NCBI RefSeq assembly: GCF_027595985.1
Contig: NC_073303.1
Coordinates: 97,208,591 to 97,272,590 of the forward strand
Source of the DNA: Sorex araneus
Taxonomy: Eukaryota; Chordata; Mammalia; Eulipotyphla; Soricidae
DNA: 64,000 bases
Direction: 5' to 3'
Shown here: piece after piece, positions 809-58,495 of the stretch
Position numbering within the stretch: the stretch's first letter is position 1
How the letters are laid out: the number at the start of each line of letters is the position of its first letter
Notes under the pieces: model-generated
What the model was told of the DNA's origin: nothing
What the model saw: the letters and a program-made list of their open reading frames with translations, nothing else
Database searches by the model: none
Made by a program: the position numbers and the translations under genes

Positions 809-995
809 GGGGCTGGAGCGATAGCACAGCGGGTAGAGCATTTGCCTTGCACGCAGCTGACCTGGGTTTGATTCCCAGCATCCCATATGATGCCCCGAGC
901 ACCACCAGGAGTAATTCCTGAGTGCATGAGCCAAGAGTAAGCCCAGTGCATCACCGGGTGTGACCCAAAAAGCAAAAAATAAATAAATAAATAAT
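809..995 (+). mobile_element. Short-type tRNA-headed SINE, intact
   Basis: A complete short-type copy with A-box-like and B-box-like regions, body and an (AAAT)n tail. The 14-bp direct repeat aaaaacaaaccttt flanks it at 795-808 and 996-1009. Confidence 0.92.
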
Positions 996-7895: not shown

Positions 7896-8064
7896 AGGGC
7901 TGGAGCGATAGCACAATGGGTAGGGCGTTTGCCTTGCACGCAGCCGACCTGGGTTCGATTCCCAGCACCCCATATGGTCCCCCGAGTACCACCAGGAGTA
8001 ACTCCTGAATGCAGAGCCAGGAGTAACCCCTGTGCATTGCCGGGTGTGGCCAAAAAAGAAAAAA
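7896..8064 (+). mobile_element. Short-type SINE, intact
   Basis: A near-consensus copy with a good A box and B box. The flanks actctatcttc (about 7885-7895) and actctaccttc (about 8070-8080) are an imperfect duplication. Confidence 0.93.
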
Positions 8065-16659: not shown

Positions 16660-17144
16660 TGGCACTAAGGAAAACAGACGCCAGTCATCATCTCTCGCTT
16701 GACAAAGCCGGTGTCCCGCCTGAAATCTTCCAGAAGTCATCGCAGATGGCCGAGTTGCCGCAGAAGCCGCCCCCGGGAGACCTGCCCCCGAAGCCCACCG
16801 AGCTTGCCCCCAGGCCCCAGATGGGAGAGCTGCCTCCGAAGCCGGGAGAGCTGCCCCCCAAGCCGCAGCTGGGCGACCTCCCGCCCAAGCCCCAGCTCTC
16901 TGAATTGCCCCCCAAGCCGCAGATGAAAGACCTGCCCCCCAAGCCGCAGCTGGGCGACCTGCTGGCCAAGCCCCAGCCCGCCGACATCTCCCCCAAGACC
17001 CAGCCACCGGGGTCCCACCCACTGGATCTGTCCCCAAACATGCCGTCCCGAGACGCCGTCCCGAAGCAGGCCTCCGAGGACTCCGGTGACCTCACCCCCA
17101 CGCTGCCCGAGACACCGGTGCCACTGCCCAGGAAAATCAACACG
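16660..17144 (+). CDS. ASAP1: ASAP1 coding exon, (D/E)LPPKP proline-rich array
   Basis: This is the largest coding exon in the window (485 bp). It opens with TG, completing the split valine codon, and ends exactly on a codon (ACG) before the donor gtgtgtggg. It encodes about 162 residues: VALRKTDASHHLSLDKAG, then FQKSSQMAELPQKPPP, then a tandem array of ~7-10-residue units of the form (G/S/K)(D/E)LPPKPQ(L/M). Six units keep LPPKP exactly; LPQKP, LAPRP and LLAKP are decayed ones. The exon closes with DLTPTLPETPVPLPRKINT. In characterised ASAP1 these prolines bind the SH3 domains of partners such as Src and CrkL. The array is slightly GC-richer than its surroundings. The reading frame stays open beyond the donor as far as 17396 (see findings). 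Confidence 0.96.
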
Positions 17145-19476: not shown

Positions 19477-19763
19477 CCATTCTTTCTCCTCTCCCTTTCT
19501 CCCTGCTAATCTCCCTTCCTTTCCTCTCCCCTCTCTCCTCTCCCTCTTCTCTTCCCCTCTACTCTGTCTCATACCTCCCCCTCTCCCCATCATCTCCCTT
19601 CTCCCGCCCATCCCATACAGACCCCTGGCAGACCCCCGCCCCTGCCCACCCCCTCCATCATGAAGGAATTAAGACTCTGCAGCTTCTGTCCCTTGCCTGG
19701 CTCAGGTGTCCCTTGCCCCCGGGGTCTATCCCCCCGTGCTGATTCCTGGTGTCTCTGTTGCAG

Positions 19764-19886
19764 GGGAAGAACAAAGTGAGGCGGGTGAAGACCATCTATG
19801 ACTGCCAGGCCGACAACGACGACGAGCTCACCTTCATTGAGGGGGAGGTGATCATCGTCACAGGGGAGGAGGACCAGGAGTGGTGG
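19764..19886 (+). CDS. ASAP1: ASAP1 coding exon, N-terminal part of SH3 domain
   Basis: This 123-bp exon (41 codons, phase 0 on both sides) follows the acceptor ttgcag and precedes the donor gtacgt. It encodes GKNKVRRVKTIYDCQADNDD, then ELTFIEGEVIIVTGEEDQEWW. Hallmarks of an SH3 fold are visible: an ALYDY-like motif (TIYDCQA), the acidic RT-loop DNDDELTF, and the Trp-Trp pair that starts the ligand-binding groove. In ASAP1 this SH3 domain binds proline motifs in FAK/Pyk2 and recruits the GAP to focal adhesions. The sequence looks unchanged from what I know of mammalian ASAP1, so strong constraint is likely. Confidence 0.96.
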
Positions 19887-25101: not shown

Positions 25102-25330
25102 GGGGCCAGAAATGGCACAGCAGCTGGAGAGCACGCCCAGCACGTGGTTCCCCAGGCATCACGCGTGCGGCCCCCGTGCAGAGCACCTCTACACCACAGG
25201 ACCAGAATAGCATCATAGCCACAGGCCCTTGCATTGAGCTGCTGGTCCCACTGGCCAAGATTAAATAGTGGGGCCTCGGGGACTCCTGAGCACCACTTGG
25301 GAGTTCCCCCATCGCCAAAAAAAAAAAAAA
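25102..25330 (+). mobile_element. Degraded SINE
   Basis: Traces: aggggccagaaatggcacag, actcctgagcaccacttggg and an A13 tail. It is longer than usual, so it may be two remnants. Confidence 0.45.
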
Positions 25331-27892: not shown

Positions 27893-28270
27893 CATTAGCA
27901 CCAGGTTTTAGATTTTGGGCCACCTTATTTGGGCTCCTAAAAATCACCCTCATGCGTCCTAACCCCATATCCCAGGGTGGCCAGGGGAACTGCTCTCTTT
28001 CATGGTCTCAAAAATAACAAGAACTTTAAGCCTCACCTTGCCCAGAGGTGAGTGAAGTCAGGCACTCAAGACGACTCCATGTCTAACACACAGTGGGCAG
28101 TCAGTAAGTGTGTCTTTGAACAGAGGCACACTTGAGACCAGCTGGCAGAAGAAACTGGAAGAGGGTGGGAGAGGTGGCTGAAAGAGCCGGAGAATGCGGT
28201 GCTTATTCCAGAGGCCTGAGATCAGTCCTAGGAACACATGGTGTCCTGAGGCCCAGCAGGCGTGCCTCTG

Positions 28271-28343
28271 CCGGCCACAGCGCTGTCTCAGCCCTGTGCC
28301 TGGGCATTGAAAAGACAGTCCCGGCAAGGCCTTGTGGGCAATG

Positions 28344-28388
<45 letters not shown>

Positions 28389-28487
28389 CACCACACACAC
28401 ACACACACACAGAGCCGGCCACAGCACTGTCTCACCCTTGTGCCTGGGCATTGAAAAGACAGTCCAGGCAAGGCCTTGTGGGCAATG

Positions 28488-28527
<40 letters not shown>

Positions 28528-28598
28528 CCGGCCACAACACTGTCTCAGCCCTGTGTGGGCATTGAAAAGACAGTCCCGGCAAGGCCTTGTGGGCAATG

Positions 28599-28643
<45 letters not shown>

Positions 28644-28738
28644 CACCACACACACACACACAGAGCCGGCCACAGCACTGTCTCACCCTTGTGCCTGGGC
28701 ATTGAAAAGACAGTCCAGGCAAGGCCTTGTGGGCAATG

Positions 28739-28780
<42 letters not shown>

Positions 28781-28851
28781 CCGGCCACAACACTGTCTCA
28801 GCCCTGTGTGGGCATTGAAAAGACAGTCCCGGCAAGGCCTTGTGGGCAATG

Positions 28852-28892
<41 letters not shown>

Positions 28893-28907
28893 ACACACAT
28901 ACACACA

Positions 28908-28938
<31 letters not shown>

Positions 28939-29169
28939 CACCACACACATACACACACACAGCCGGCCACAGCACTGTCTCAGCCCTGTGCCTGGGCATT
29001 GAAAAGACAGTCCGGGCAAGGCCTTGTGGACAATGCTCCACACACATACACACACACACACACACGCACACACACCACACACACACACACACAGAGCCGG
29101 CCACAGCACTGTCTCACCCTTGTGCCTGGGCATTGAAAAGACAGTCCGGGCAAGGCCTTGTGGGCAATG

Positions 29170-29215
<46 letters not shown>
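28271..29215. repeat. Compound minisatellite: (CA)n plus ~75-bp core, 7 units
   Basis: Seven copies of a ~75-bp core (starting gccggccacag(c/a)(g/a)ctgtctca and ending ggccttgtgggcaatgcta) alternate with (CA)n blocks of variable length. Core starts are near 28271, 28415, 28527, 28665, 28781, 28963 and 29097. Units alternate between a 'cacccttgtgcctgggc' form and a shorter 'cagccctgtgtgggc' form. The pair at 28415-28560 recurs almost unchanged at 28665-28815, giving a ~250-bp higher-order period. Open frames reading Thr-His or Cys-Val through it are artefacts of the CA runs. Confidence 0.95.
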
Positions 29216-45536: not shown

Positions 45537-45697
45537 GTGAGTGATAGCACAAGAGGTAGAGCGTTTGCCTTGCACACAGCCAACCCAGGTTCGATTCCCA
45601 GCATCCCGTATGGTCCCCAGGAGTAATTCCTGAGTGCAGAGCCAGGAGTATCCCTATGCATTGCCGGGTGTGACCCCCAAAAAAAAATAGAAAAGAA
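45537..45697 (+). mobile_element. Short-type SINE with altered 5' end and a body deletion
   Basis: The head starts agtgagtgatagcacaagag. A ~14-bp gap removes the usual ctgagcaccgcc after tatggtcccc. The tail is A9 then AAAAGAAAAG. Confidence 0.88.
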
Positions 45698-45732
45698 AAG
45701 AACATTAGTGGGACAAAGCATAGCAGACTGCC

Positions 45733-46301
45733 ATTGGCTGGAACTGGTTGGCATGGACTGGCATAGGTTGACATAGGCTAGCACAGCCTGGCACTGATTG
45801 GCACTGATGGACTCAACATAGCATAACTGGCGAGTCTAGAACTAGATGGCACATCTTGACACAAGCTGGCAATCAGTGGCACATGCTGGTGTGGGTTGCA
45901 TTGGCTGGTATAAGCCGGTAATTATTGGCAGGGTTTGCATAGCCTAGCATAGGTCAACTCTCCCAACACAGACTGGCACTGAATGGCACTGGCAGCACTG
46001 TGTCACAGGTTGGCACTAACTGGCACTGACTGGCATGGGCTGGCATTTAAACCAATTTTTACTGACTGCCGTGTGCTGGCACCAGCTGGCATGTTTTGGC
46101 TTCAACTGGCTTGGGTTGGCATTTCCCCACAAGGCTGGCATGGTTGACACTGATTGGCATATGTTGGCACTGACACGTACATTCACTACTTGGCATTTGT
46201 TGGCATAGGTTGACATCAACTGTCAAATTTTGGCACTGATTGATGCCAATTGGTACAGATTGGTACTGGCTAGCACATGTTGGTATTGGCACAGGTTGGC
46301 A
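45733..46301. repeat. Degenerate 10-bp minisatellite, block A (TTGGCAYNGR form)
   Basis: About 57 diverged units of a 10-bp motif, e.g. ctggcatgga, ctggcatagg, ttgacatagg, ctggcactga, ttggcactga. TGGCA recurs at 10- or 20-bp spacing across the block. It is bounded by a SINE upstream and ordinary sequence downstream. Confidence 0.92.
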
Positions 46302-46369
46302 GATTTTCTGCGACTTCTCCTGATAACCAGACACCATCTTCCCTGTTTCTATTGCTGTCCCAATTTCCT

Positions 46370-46505
46370 CTGTCTATAAGGACACCAGTTAGAGTGGATT
46401 AGGGTCCATGCTAATGAGCTCACTTTAGTCACCTCCTCAAATACAGATACGGTCACATTCAGATGCAGAGGTATTTTTGGAGGGACACACAATTTGGCCC
46501 ATAAT
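46370..46505 (+). repeat. Ancient mammal-wide repeat (family unnamed)
   Basis: The run ctataaggacaccagttaga-like, ggattagggtccatgctaat, gagctcactttagtcacctc and gagggacacacaatttggcc is a widespread mammalian repeat motif series. I cannot assign the family. Confidence 0.5.
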
Positions 46506-46764
46506 ATCAGCCAAGTAATAAGATAATAGAGTTGGTGCCGGGCACTTGGTGGTTTTTTTTTTTTTTATTCATCTCTGCACTTGCTTTGCTTGCATTAAAT
46601 ATTTCCTGTTGAAAAATCCAGTGTGATTGATCACGATACTTTTCTCAGAATAAGGATGAGCAACCCTGGGGGTGGGAGTGGGGGTGGGAGGCGCACTAAC
46701 CCACAAGTAGCCCCTCTACATCTCGATTCAGGCTTTTAGCTCTGGCTTTACACTAAAGAACTTT

Positions 46765-46905
46765 AAGGGCTGAGCAGACAACTCAGGTTTGATCCCTAGC
46801 ACTACTCGGACCATCCCTGCCCCAAGCATCAGCAGGAATGATCCCTGAGAACAGAGCTGGGAGAGACACCTACAGGGTAGGACCCAAAACTCCAAAAGAA
46901 AAGAA
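46765..46905 (+). mobile_element. Degraded short SINE
   Basis: Traces: ggtttgatccctagcactac, aggaatgatccctgagaaca and a AAAAGAAAAGAAAAT end. Confidence 0.6.
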
Positions 46906-47614
46906 AATAACAAATAGAAGAACTCAATGAACATTCTAAAGTCTGATTCTAAAGTCTGATTCAGTTCAATCAGAATCTTGGGCGGGCACTCGAAGGCTAA
47001 TGAGTCCTCCACGTGCTTCTCACACGTACTTTGAGAAAGAGCTGTGCTGTGTTCAAGCTTCTGCTGCTTGGGAATCAACAGGAGGGTTAGATAAACCCAG
47101 TGCTGGGTGCCACTGCAGAATTTCTGAGTCAACGGGTGTGGGGCAGGGCCGAGACTTGAGTGTTGGAATCCCTGGTCAGGGCTGCTGCTGCTGATCTCAG
47201 GGCTGTCCGCAGGGAACTCTGTGAGTGGCTGCTCACTTGCTATCTGCAAGCAGTCACCTGCTGTTTTGTGAACACATGAGGGCTTATGAAGATATGAAAG
47301 ATGAATGTTTAAGAAAAGGTCACAAACTCTCCTCTGTCTGCAGTTTCCACCACTCCCTACTGCCCTGTGGGCAGATTTCTCAGCATGAAGCTTGCTGGGA
47401 AGCCCCACTCAGGGGCGCTGGGAATAGTTAGCAGCTCTTCTTATGTTTTTGTTTTATTGGGAGGGGGTGGGCCCACCAAATGACGTGGTACTAAGACCTG
47501 GCGTCCCTCCCACAGATTCTCAGCCAAGGAGGTCAGTAGCTCAATGTAAGGGCCAGAGATTGCAGTCCTCCTGGGGCCCTGTTGTGCCTGGACTTACCTG
47601 GGGGCCTCCAGGGT

Positions 47615-49330
47615 TGCACATGTGCCAGGCAGTACCAGCTGGCATCAGTCTGTAACAGTTTATGCCAATCAATGCCAGCACATGCTAACTTATACTGGTC
47701 CATATCAGGCAATGCCACTTTGTGCCAAGCATGATCTGTCTATGTCAACATGTGCCACTTAATGTGTATCAGTGCCAACCTATACCAACACATGTTAGTC
47801 TGTATCACATGGTGCCAGTGTCATTCTTGCCAGTTTATGCCAGCCTTGTCAGCCCTCCCTCCCCAATCTATGACTGCCTGCAACAACCTGTGCCAGTCTA
47901 TGCCAGTCAGTACCAACAGATAGCAGGCAGTGCTAACCTGTAACATCTTGTGCCAGTCCATGCAAACCTGTGCTAACCAGTGCCACCCTACATTAGCCTA
48001 TGTAAGTATGTGCCAACGCACACTGACCTGTACTAATTTATGCCAACCAATGTCAACCAGTTCCAGTTGATGCCAAATTCACCAGTCCTTGCCATTCAAT
48101 ACCGAGTTACCACCATAATCCTGTACCAAAACTACTCAGCCAATGCCTGCGTATGTCAGTCTGTGCTAACCAGGGCCATCTGATGCCAATCTTGACAATA
48201 TCAGACCATGCTGGCCAGTGCCAGTCAATGCCAACTTATGCCAATTGGTGATACTCAATACCAACTAGTGCCCATCTTACCAGATTGTACCAAATCCTGC
48301 CAGTATATGCCATACTGAGTTAGACCTTTCCAACCTTTGCTTGTGACTGTCTGCCAGTCTATAGCAGTCAATACCAAGATGTACCAGGCAGTGCCAGCTT
48401 ATACAAACCGGTGTCATCCTTGCCACCAGTATTTGTCAACTGGTGCTACTCAGTGCCAACTGGTATACCAAACTGTGCCAGTCTATACCAGATGGTGCCA
48501 ACTTTACCAGTCAAAAAAACAGTATCAATCTGTGACAATTTGTGCCAGCATATGCCAGTCAGTGCCAGTATGTACCAGGTGAAACCAACCTATACCAACC
48601 CATGCCAGGTAGTGGCAATCAGTGCTAAACTGTGTTGTAACAACCCACATCAAATGTGCAGTCCTTACCAACCTATGACAGTCAATGCCCACCTGTGCCT
48701 GGTGGTGTTATCTGGTGTCAGTCTATGGCAGCCAGTGCCTAACTGTGCCAGATGGTGCCTGTCAATACCAGTCTGTGTCAGTCTGTGCTACTGCCAAACT
48801 AACTGCCAACTGGTGTTTGCCAGAGCCCACTGGTGCCAGGAAGTGCCTCTCTGTGTTGAACTTCCTTGCCAATCAACATTGGACATCACTGTCAGGCAGT
48901 ACAAGTTCATGCCAAGTCATGCCTACCCATGCCAACCTTGCTGGGTGGTGCCAGCCCATGCCAACCGGTGCCATTTGGTGTAAGGCAGTGATAGATAATT
49001 CTAGCCTGTGAAAAATGGTGCCATTCAATGCCAACCAGTACCAAATTTGCCAGGTGATGCCATTGTCTATGCCAGCTGGTACCATTCTTGCCAACTCTTG
49101 CCAGTCTCTGCTGACCCATGTCGATTCGTGTCTGTCTATGCAAAACCTTGCCAGGCAGTGTTCTTCTATGCCAACCAGTGCTAGTCTATGCCAACCTGTG
49201 ACATTCTATGCTAGTCTGTATGGTCTATGCCAACTTGTGCTAGGTAGATACATTCTGTGTCAACCTGTGCCAGTCAATGCCAGTCTGCGCCCATTTATGT
49301 CAGCCAACGCCAGTGGATACCAGTGGTGCT
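47615..49330. repeat. Degenerate 10-bp minisatellite, block B (YNTGCCAGTC form)
   Basis: About 170 diverged units of the reverse complement of the block A motif: tatgccaatc, aatgccagca, tgtgccactt, tgtgccagtc and similar. TGCCA recurs at 10- or 20-bp spacing for 1.7 kb. Cys/Gln/Pro-rich open frames in it (for example 48411-48983) are by-products of the repeat. Confidence 0.93.
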
Positions 49331-49599
49331 AGGAATCAAATGCAGCATCCTACACATCCAAATTTTACTTCATCTAAACCGACATTTATGCCAAAGTTCT
49401 TGCAAAGGCTGGGCATGCCAGGAAGTGCCTTACCCCTACACCTTTAACAAAGATTGTGATGATCACAACAGCAGTGATGCCTGTGTTCAAGGTCCTATTG
49501 ATGTACACTCTTCTATACAGGTGCTATTTTATTCAATCCCAACATAATCTAATAAAGTAGTTTCTCAACAATTCCATTTCACAGATGAGCAAGCAAGGT

Positions 49600-49815: not shown

Positions 49816-50544
49816 TGCCCACTTGGTAAGTGGCCAAGGAAGGAAAGAAACTCAGCTCAGTACTGTCTGATCACAAATCTTTTTTTTTCCCCTACTCTTA
49901 TCTTCATACTTCAAGACCTGTTTCTTCCTTCCTCACTCTTCTCCAGCGGCATTGGGAACAGATCCATCAGCAAGACACTGGTGCTCACAGATGCTTTCCC
50001 CATTTCTCTCACTTGACCTAAATGATGTCTAACACTTCTAGAAAGGGGAGGGGATCCTCGGCTCCCTTTGCTTCTTGGAGTTCTTCCCTTCAGAGTTGAG
50101 TGCACACCCTTCCCCCTTCAAGGCTGATGCTATCTTGGCATCTGTTCTGCTCTTCGCACTTACCTGGCCTGATGCCTCTTATTTCCCCCTCAGGACCAGA
50201 TGCCCTGCTTGGAAAGTCCTCGTGGAGAGAAACCCATTCTCTCAGTACCCCCGCTCCGAGCCCTGGACCTGGGTTAGAGAAAGGGCAGAAAGCATTTCTG
50301 CTCAAAAACTCCCATCAGTCTTTGCTGTCATGTTTGCACTCCCACCTTCCAATCCAGAATGACTGGCAGGAAAGCTGAAAAACAATACAGCGGTGTGTGT
50401 GGGGGGGAGGGATGGTGGTTAGGGATGGGAGGAAGGGTATGAGAGTGAGGCCTCCTTCATGCAAAGCATGAGTTCCAACCCTCTGAGCTATCTAATGGAG
50501 AGGGAGCGAGGGAAGCTGAAGGTGATCAGGAGAGGCGGCCAGCT

Positions 50545-50600: not shown

Positions 50601-51239
50601 CAGGTTTGTTTGTTTGCTTTTGGTGTAACCCTTGATGCCCTGTTCCTGGCCAGTGAAGGGATACTTCAACGAATATGGTCTAGATTCCTTAAACCCTTGG
50701 CTCCAATTCAAGACGATGCTAGGACGGCAGTGACCGCGGAGGGGGTGAACGCGGGGGCAAGGCGAGGACAGAGTACAGCAGTCTTAATTTTCCAGGCAGG
50801 TCCTGTGGCAGTTGGGGAAATGAGGTGTTGGCCAGTACCGACCAAGGAGGGGCCCTGCCGTCGTCCTGGCGCTGGAATCACAGAGAGAAGCGTGTGGCTT
50901 GGGGATTTCTGTACCGAGTCCTGCGAGAGCCAGCTTCTGTCTACTGGGTCTGCGCTTGCTTTCTCTAGCGAATTGGCAACACCCTTCGCAGCAGATATGG
51001 GTGTATTGTCTGCTCCCGGGGCTCCGGGCAGGGATTTTTGTATTTGGGCTTCTGACGGTTACCCCCAGGGCCTAGAACAGCTCGGGTTCTTACAGGCCCT
51101 CCCGGAACATCTGGGGGTGCGCAGGGGTAGGGGGGGTGGGGAGTGGATGGAGCTCCTGAACGCACAGCCTCTCTCTGACCCACAGGGCATCATCCATCCG
51201 TCCCCCCACGTCCAGGTGGGGCCCGCGGCCAGGGCAGGG

Positions 51240-52300
51240 GGCAGTCGAAGCTGTGACCTGCCCGACAGGTTGTGACCTTGGCCCTGCCCGTGCTCCCGGA
51301 GCCGGCGTGTCCTCTCCTCCGGGAGGGCCCCGAGCTCCCTGCATGCTCCCCACCCGCTGCGCACCCCAGCAGCTGCGACTCGCCCAAGGTCATCACGGTC
51401 CCGGGAGGGCCGGGGGGGGGGGTGGAGGGGCGGGGGAGCCGGGGGGGGGGCCGAGAGGTGGGGGGTGGGCTTGTCCCCAGGACTCAGGCTCGCGCCCGGA
51501 CGCCCCCTCCCCCCGCCGCCGCCTTTTGGGGGGCGGTCCCGGGGCGCCACGCGCGCTGACGCGGGGCCCCGCGATGCGGCGGGGACCGGGCGCGGGGGGG
51601 AGGCGGCGTCGGCGAGCGTCCTCCTTTTGTGCGAGCGCCGGCGGCTGGGGCTGCTCGAAGGTAAACAGCGTTTCCTCTTCCTCCTCGAGGCGTCTCTTCC
51701 TTTTATAGTTATTTCTCGCCTGGCACTCGCCGGGGCCGCTGCCGCCGCGCCGGGGCCGCTCGCGAACCTGTGGCGGTGACGTGAGAGCGGCCAACCCGGA
51801 AACGGCGGCTCCGCTCCCCGCGCCCCGCGCCCCGCGCCCGCCGCCCGCGCCGCAGCCCGCCCGGCCGCCCGCCAGGTACGTGCCGCCCGGGCACCCCCGC
51901 TCGCACCCGCACCACCCCCGCGCGGCTCCCGCCCGGGGCGCGCGGGGTGCGGGGCGCGCGCGCGCGTGATGCTGGGTGGGAGCGAGGTGGGAGCGGGGTG
52001 CGCCCGGGTGCGGGAGAGGCGCCCCGCGGCTCGGGGCGGGGGGTGGGGTGGGGTGGGGTGGGGGTGGGTGGCCCCGGCGGTCGCGGGTGGGCTGAGGACG
52101 CCCTGGACGCGCGGGGCCGCCGCCCGGGTGCAGCCGGCTGCGGGGAGCGCGCCCCGAGGGAGGGGACGCGCGGGGTGGTCGGTCTCCCCCAGCCCCACCC
52201 CTGCCCCATCCACCCTGCTCCGCTCGGCCCACGCCTTCTGAGCCAGGTGAGGGCGCAGGGTCGTGCCGCAGCGCCCCCCGCGCGGCCCCCACCCCTCGGC
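51240..52300 (+). promoter_or_regulatory. CYRIB: CpG island, candidate CYRIB (FAM49B) promoter
   Basis: This kilobase is extremely GC-rich and keeps dense CpG, unlike everything else in the window, and no SINE is inserted in it. Possible elements are GC boxes, a TTTTATAG TATA-like motif at 51701-51708, TGACGT at 51777-51782 (CRE-like half) and CCGGAAA at 51796-51802 (ETS-like). In human chromosome 8 the gene beyond the ASAP1 3' end, in the same orientation, is CYRIB (FAM49B), a Rac1-binding inhibitor of the SCAR/WAVE pathway. The assignment is by synteny only; no CYRIB coding sequence is in the window. Long frames antisense to the island are GC artefacts. Confidence 0.65.
51735..51875 (+). 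other. Candidate non-coding first exon
   Basis: A strong donor CAG/GTACGTG ends this segment at 51875, downstream of the TATA-like and ETS-like motifs. The start is an estimate of about 30 bp after the TATA-like box. No ATG frame of a known protein is present, consistent with a 5' UTR exon. Confidence 0.35.
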
Positions 52301-52764
52301 CAACTTCCATGGGGAGTGGGCGGGCTTGGCAGGTCAGTGTCGGAAAAGAGGAACTGGGGAGGGGGGGGCTGGACCCGCGCCCCGTTGACCTCGACACTTC
52401 CTCCTGGGGTAACCCCCCGCCTCTGCTGGAAGAGCGCTTCCCCTTGGCCCTTTATCTTTCCATCAGGATTTTTGTTTTTTTAATGGGAGTTCGCCGGGAA
52501 CGGGTGGATGCCCTTGCGGCGGGTGTATCTGGCGCTGCCGAGTAGACACGCGCAGCGGGGCTCGAACCGGGGTGCCTTCCCCGGGGGCGGGGGGGCTTTC
52601 TCGGGTCGGGGCCGGGCGGAAAGCGGAACCGCCGAGGACTTCCCCTGCTGGACGGACCCCTGACTTGGCTCCCCACCCGGCTGCTGAGAAATGGAGTCGG
52701 TGGGGGGAGGTGTGGAGCGCGAAGGAGGCGACGCTGGGGACGCCCCTGGGGACGGGACTTTGCA

Positions 52765-57704: not shown

Positions 57705-58495
57705 CAGGCCAGAGCGGTAGTACAGCGGTTAAGGAGCTCGCCTTGTGTGAGGTTAAGATCCCCCTTGCCTCCTCTAGTCCCCTGCGCCTACCAGGAGTGA
57801 TCCCTGAGCCTACCAGGTGTGACCCCTGAGCCTACCAGGAGTGATCCCTGAGCCTACCAGGAGTGATCCCTGAGCCTATCAGGAGTGACCCCTGAGCCTA
57901 CCAGGAGTGATCCCTGAGCCTATCAGGAGTGATCCCTGAGCCTACCAGGAGTGATCCCTGAGCCTACCAGGAGTGATCCCTGAGCCTACTAGGAGTGACC
58001 CCTGAGCCTACCAGGAGTGATCCCTGAGCCTACCAGGAGTGATCCCTGAGCCTATCAGGAGTGATCCCTGAGCCTACCAGGTGTGACCCCTGAGCCTACC
58101 AGGAGTGATCCCTGAGCCTACCAGGAGTGATCCCTGAGCCTACTAGGAGTGATCCCTGAGCCTACCAGGAGTGATCCCTGAGCCTATCAGGAGTGATCCC
58201 TGAGCCTACCAGGAGTGATCCCTGAGCCGACTAGGAGTGATCCCTGAAGCTACCAGGAGTGATCCCTGAAGCTACCAGGAGTGATCCCTGAGCCTACCAG
58301 GAGTGATCCCTGAGCCGACTAGGAGTGACCCCTGAGCCTACCAGGAGTGATCCCTGAGCCGACTAGGAGTGATCACTGAGCCTACCAGGAGTGATCCCTG
58401 AGCCGACTAGGAGTGACCCCTGAGCCTACCAGGAGTGATCCCTAAGCACAGAGCTAGAAGTAAGCCTTGAGCACAACCAGGTGTGGTTAAAAAAA
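57705..58495 (+). mobile_element. SINE expanded by an internal minisatellite
   Basis: The head (ggccagagcggtagtacagc, ggttaaggagctcgccttgt) lies at 57710-57785. The 3' end (aagcacagagctagaagtaa, gagcacaaccaggtgtggtt then A10) lies at 58447-58495. A normal copy would be about 170 bp; this one spans about 790 because of the 22-bp array between the two parts. Confidence 0.85.
57786..58445 (+). repeat. 22-bp minisatellite, 30 units in exact register
   Basis: The unit gcctaccaggagtgatccctga (shown from 57786, 22 bases) repeats every 22 bp without indels from 57786 to 58445. That is exactly 30 units. Variants are at single positions: ACC/ATC, CTACC/CGACT/CTACT, GATCC/GACCC, GAGTG/GTGTG and GAGCC/GAAGC. 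The unit matches the SINE segment 'gag-cac-cgccaggagtgatccctga'. Confidence 0.96.

Follow-up and report, generated by a model that had tools for sequence, protein, structure and literature searches.

The stretch of DNA analyzed here, referred to as the window, is 64,000 nucleotides (64 kb) long and is mammalian, as judged by its putative ASAP1 exons. The features to which we refer are as follows.

16669..17100 (ends approximate), plus strand: ASAP1-type proline-rich exon; its translation displays (D/E)LPPKP repeats
19743..19886, plus strand: part of the ASAP1 SH3 domain, matching the ASAP1 SH3 chain 8ze8 (E = 1.9e-24) and PF00018 (E = 4.8e-8)
45724..46301, minus strand: block A of a 10-bp repeat, 60 analyzed units, TTGGCAY.. 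on the plus strand and NRTGCCARYC on the minus strand
46302..47620, no strand assigned: spacer between blocks A and B, with no 10-bp period (lag-10 identity, 0.29)
47621..49324, plus strand: block B of the 10-bp repeat, 175 analyzed units, NRTGCCARYC on the plus strand
about 51200..52330 (ends set by eye), plus strand: CpG island recognized from the sequence, about 1.9 kb past block B

The (D/E)LPPKP motif is one that we take to mark the proline-rich exon of ASAP1; the exon at 16669..17100 gave no family match in Pfam. A coding repeat of 27/48/81 bp is present within it at 16775-17004. The SH3 segment lies about 26 kb before block A, and both blocks are flanked by the 3' end of ASAP1 on one side and by the CpG island on the other. 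Within the island, a candidate splice donor for a first exon follows about position 51875. Judging by the human gene order, the island is likely to be the promoter of CYRIB/FAM49B. Short peptide motifs of the CYRIB coding exons were sought across the 64-kb window, and none were found. Rfam gave two tRNA matches in the window (815-885 and 7902-7972), and a tRNA-type SINE is abundant throughout it, with one copy in the spacer at about 46774-46935. The abundance of this SINE agrees with a shrew as the source, as supposed in the initial annotation. Four of the 12 stop-to-stop ORFs listed for the spacer, encoding 226, 84, 71, and 68 amino acids, had no family match in Pfam. The regions 25192-25330 and 47446-47586 match in opposite orientations (61% across 141 bp) and are perhaps copies of an old interspersed repeat.

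Two further tandem arrays are present in the window. The region 57780-58447 contains about 30 copies of a 22-bp unit with the consensus CCCTGAGCCTACCAGGAGTGAT, 91% matching, and ends in a SINE-like tail; by its sequence, this array seems to have expanded from the 3' part of the local tRNA-type SINE. It is young, in contrast to the decayed 10-bp array. The other, at 28270-29215, is a compound array with units of about 111-134 bp that each include a long AC run and match at 92-96%.

The initial annotation had described two blocks of a degenerate 10-bp repeat at 45733-46301 and 47615-49330, lying in opposite orientations. Our results clearly confirm this description. Autocorrelation gave a 10-bp peak in both blocks, with a lag-10 identity of 0.49 in block A and 0.44 in block B, against 0.25 expected from base composition and 0.29 in the spacer. 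The peaks recur at 20, 30, 40, 50, and 60 bp, and by 60 bp they have fallen to 0.29 in block A and 0.34 in block B. A circular 10-column profile fitted by expectation maximization to each block separately gained 224 nats in block A and 609 nats in block B, whereas refitted mononucleotide shuffles (four per block) scored from -29 to -19 and from -99 to -87 nats, respectively. The head-to-tail repetition of one unit, which characterizes minisatellites and simple-sequence satellites, is thus above chance in this DNA. The bounds used here were obtained with a two-state profile hidden Markov model scan of the 64-kb window and agree with the earlier coordinates to about 10 bases; the scan revealed no third block. 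TGGCA occurs on the plus strand in block A and TGCCA on the plus strand in block B.

Read on the TGCCA strand, the unit is N-R-T-G-C-C-A-R-Y-C (columns 0 to 9). With both blocks pooled, the columns of the TGCCA core are 72-90% pure, and columns 2 and 6 reach 86-90%. Columns 1 and 7 are close to an even mixture of A and G, column 8 is also near 50:50, and column 0 is mixed. Edge units were excluded from the counts (4 of the 64 parsed in block A and 2 of the 177 in block B). Tandem Repeats Finder, which the initial annotation had proposed as a check, listed two fragments of the blocks, at 46136-46173 and 49156-49211, each with a period of 20, and missed the rest of the array. The fragments amount to 38 and 56 bp of a 2.3-kb array; the divergence of the units is probably too high for the program. 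Old short-unit arrays of this kind may thus be undercounted in genomes. A coding reading of block B was rejected, as each of the six frames contains 12 to 34 stops; the longest open stretch is 219 codons.

Blocks A and B represent a single 10-bp family in two opposite orientations. Their motifs agree after reverse complementation, so that neither of the two outcomes named in the initial annotation as refuting (no 10-bp peak, or differing consensus motifs) occurred. The column profile of reverse-complemented block A correlates with that of block B at r = 0.98 over 40 cells. The heterogeneity between the two profiles (chi, 28.7) equals what permutation produces (mean, 29.2; p = 0.50), and the thirds of block B differ from one another to an equally small extent (p, 0.14 to 0.53). 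Divergence of the core is 0.175 in block A (95% interval, 0.128-0.230) and 0.207 in block B (0.179-0.237), and these intervals overlap. Unit order, on the other hand, is not common to the two blocks. Among 300 shuffles of unit order, 260 scored as high as the actual order; with three different scorings, 27, 39, and 34 of 80 shuffles attained the best ungapped match between the blocks, and 46% of 300 shuffles attained the best A-to-B unit offset. Inverted arms are listed between the blocks, for example, 45724-45812 with 49130-49218, which are 71% complementary over 89 nucleotides. As the order of units differs between the blocks, block A is not a still recognizable inverted copy of a stretch of block B, and the possibility that it was copied from part of block B was rejected on the unit-order and ungapped shuffle tests. 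The flanks of block A bear no likeness to those of block B; 270 and 348 shuffles, out of 500 each, matched as well.

In growing arrays, neighboring units are usually more alike than distant ones, a property that is usual in active arrays and not strictly defining. Such local homogenization was found in neither block. The identity between adjacent units is 0.545 in block A, against 0.539 after shuffling (z = 0.4), and 0.506 in block B, against 0.528 (z = -2.3), so that neighbors in block B are slightly less alike than random pairs. In simulations that apply equal mutation to all columns, a burst followed by decay gave a lag-1 identity equal to the mean identity, at 0.58 with 25% and 0.52 with 30% mutation per site, values that bracket the observed 0.53-0.54. 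Under slippage of single units, lag-1 identity exceeded the mean by 0.03 to 0.20 in each of five settings. When blocks of as many as 5 or 20 units were duplicated and then decayed, almost no neighbor signal was left. Since block duplication with long decay mimics a burst, the data show that growth was followed by long decay, and they do not single out one burst or any other mode of growth.

Some of the variation among units is probably old. Among 245 column pairs, taken from the same unit or from units one or two steps apart, four pairs of adjacent columns (9-0, 0-1, 5-6, and 7-8) exceeded z = 7, and the next strongest (column 8 with the following column 0) had a z of 3.9. At columns 7-8, AC (53 units) and GT (51) prevail over GC (29) and AT (22), a dimorphism that we take for two old unit types. 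Some of the unit variation, A/G at two positions and AC/GT at columns 7-8, probably predated the growth of the array. Clear clustering or alternation of the AC and GT types is absent from block B (lag-1 mean, -0.14; n = 37); the block A value of -0.5 comes from too few units to judge (n = 8). The alternating 20-bp dimer hinted at by the period-20 rows was accordingly discarded, as the types do not clearly alternate. Units 48 apart in block B (about 480 bp) are weakly similar, with a z reached by 1 of 1,000 shuffles over 99 lags. This signal does not repeat at lag 96 (z = 0.6), and a higher-order repeat in block B was rejected on that ground and because the A-to-B offset is at chance level.

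Both blocks are strongly depleted of CpG, with observed/expected ratios of 0.12 in block A and 0.09 in block B, compared with 0.22 for the spacer and 0.34 for the window as a whole. At the junctions between units, CG was observed 2 times against 16.3 expected, TG 23 against 7.2, and CA 51 against 39.8, which is a deamination signature. Within the core, GC-to-AT transitions (26 of 174 in block A and 104 of 515 in block B; 130 of 689 overall) outnumber those from AT to GC (8 of 117 and 16 of 345; 24 of 462). CpG loss and such a transition bias are what methylated, unselected DNA would undergo. We considered C[G/C]G as the ancestor of the unit junction and dropped the idea: 167 of 208 triplets are reachable from it by C-to-T or G-to-A changes, and independent columns predict 165.3. 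As these numbers are nearly equal, the evidence for deamination at the junction is the CpG deficit alone, and not that ancestor.

Transversions are rarer in the core (75 of 1,151 cells) than outside it (219 of 1,127, or 123 of 899 without column 0). The excess outside the core stems mostly from columns 0, 8, and 9 (42, 21, and 13%); columns 1 and 7 have 8.3 and 12.2%, and the core columns have 2.6-10.5%. Old variation among units would explain the low rate in the core, and selection on the core would also explain it. The numbers of units keeping 5, 4, 3, 2, and 1 of the five core bases are 82, 84, 37, 16, and 4, against 72, 93, 46, 11, and 1 expected. Broken cores are thus more uneven than independent decay predicts, perhaps due to misparsed units.

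One alternative reading is that the array is a maintained set of sites for an NFI-like protein, with selected TGCCA cores and drifting linkers, near a CpG island. The NFI motif is the half-site TTGGCA/TGCCAA, and NFI dimers prefer a palindromic spacing. The recurrence of the half-site proposed in the initial annotation is borne out: TTGGC/GCCAA occurs 16 times in block A (28 per kb) and 24 times in block B (14 per kb), against 2.3 per kb in the spacer and 1.9 per kb in window positions 1-45000. The purity of the core relative to the linkers, transversions included, and column mixtures that resemble a binding matrix, are equal in both blocks, and show little linkage between distant columns also speak for such sites. 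The arrangement of the half-sites argues against them. TTGGC-N5-GCCAA with zero or one mismatch is absent from blocks A and B, and a single case appears in block A at two mismatches; the window as a whole holds five with up to one mismatch, the nearest at 49823. The A after the core, which creates GCCAA, is no more frequent where the core is intact (34 of 81) than where it is broken (57 of 139), and the transversion rates of linker columns 1 and 7 are near those of the core.

Helical phase is likewise not maintained. The turn of B-DNA is about 10.5 bp, and the suggestion that every TGCCA faces the same side of the DNA does not hold at longer distances: the TGCCA positions in block B, taken modulo 10, number 0, 3, 1, 10, 13, 4, 8, 3, 12, and 4 for phases 0 to 9, the cores being spread because of indels. 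The half-sites are many by composition and lack the arrangement that NFI dimers prefer, and the NFI idea is weak. We regard a maintained array of such sites as quite improbable. A broader version, in which the 235 units are like independent draws from one binding matrix, the same for the two blocks and with most columns unlinked, and form a maintained two-sided array of TGCCA half-sites that an NFI-type protein would read in either direction to shape chromatin just upstream of the CYRIB promoter, appears to us very improbable. Instead, we infer that the array lacks a function and is most likely an ordinary, if unusual-looking, relic rather than a working switch.

For the origin of the two orientations, the initial annotation had offered two explanations, that one array was partly inverted or that two expansions took place independently. 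We favor the inversion of one array because the column mixtures of the blocks are equal and their core divergences overlap; no breakpoint was identified. A degenerate 10-bp minisatellite would have grown in a quick burst, by multi-unit unequal exchange or by reinsertion of a circular concatemer. A local inversion would then have cut it into blocks A and B, and point mutation together with the loss of methylated CpG, presumably in the germline, would have eroded the units without further homogenization. Taken as a whole, this account has, in our view, a somewhat better than even chance of being correct. Uniform decay does not account for the contrast between columns 1, 7, and 8, with their nearly 50:50 mixtures, and columns 2 and 6, with a purity of 86-90%. 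The mismatch between the flanks of the blocks fits an inversion, but it also fits two separate insertions.

The latter explanation, that members of one satellite family present elsewhere in the genome inserted or expanded twice, in opposite directions and 1.3 kb apart, would account for the identical unit, for the absence of a common unit order (260 of 300; 27, 39, and 34 of 80), and for the unrelated flanks. It requires two events with overlapping ages and equal mixtures within 1.3 kb, and other blocks are absent from the 64 kb. A comparison of the outer-edge regions 45641-45780 and 49301-49420 revealed no direct repeat of at least 7 bases between them, a search that shorter repeats would escape. 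We consider two insertions unlikely and prefer a single array split by an inversion. The two inverted blocks of 10-bp units on either side of a unique center also resemble a foldback-type transposon, in which short tandem repeats make up the long inverted arms. The longest direct match between the outer edges is 6 bases (a shorter target-site duplication would be missed), the 7-base inverted matches there fall in repeat units or in repeat-like TGGCA, the arms are not complementary in order, and the four spacer ORFs have no Pfam family. We know of no foldback element of this kind in mammals, and such an origin seems very improbable. A further proposal concerns the birth of the satellite and is compatible with a single inverted array. 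The segments 46302-46520 and about 45700-45733, which flank block A, read like a putative old MLT1-type long terminal repeat (LTR) on the minus strand. Block A may have grown inside this LTR, with an MLT1-like piece on each side, the satellite being born from it. The window lacks a second copy, and the unrelated flanks indicate that, as far as the flank comparison sees, the blocks do not lie in the same LTR stretch. An LTR birth is, in our judgment, rather unlikely. On the preferred reading of one array divided by an inversion, a pair of blocks with overlapping ages and no later homogenization provides a clean record of decay in a short-unit array, along with its CpG loss, and the burst and the inversion could each be dated by a comparison among shrews.

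The array can be compared with several known systems. With NFI/TGGCA half-sites, it shares the frequent TTGGCA/TGCCAA, but it lacks the dimer spacing and does not favor A at the distinguishing base. The FB elements of Drosophila have inverted arms of short tandem repeats, a feature shared with the shrew blocks, which differ in that their outer-edge direct repeats do not exceed 6 bases and their arms are unordered. The HS-beta satellite of the kangaroo rat has a 10-bp unit and forms large heterochromatic blocks. The HS satellites of that animal resemble the shrew array in having a mammalian host and short, variable units; they differ in their large heterochromatic blocks and in unit sequence. 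The initial annotation knew of no described satellite of this form, a statement that stands among the matches listed in word searches of open-access full texts, a route by which this 10-bp unit is easily missed; as a kind, short-unit satellites with 10-bp units are known. Excerpts of one paper describe human satellite III, with 5- and 10-bp units, and Drosophila satellites with units of 5-10 bp, and propose growth through circles and unequal exchange (PMC8122249). The shrew array shares with the satellites in these excerpts the very short unit, 10 bp included, and the proposed mode of growth. Unlike them, it spans only 2.3 kb, lies outside known heterochromatin and near a CpG island, is strongly decayed, and is divided into two opposite blocks.
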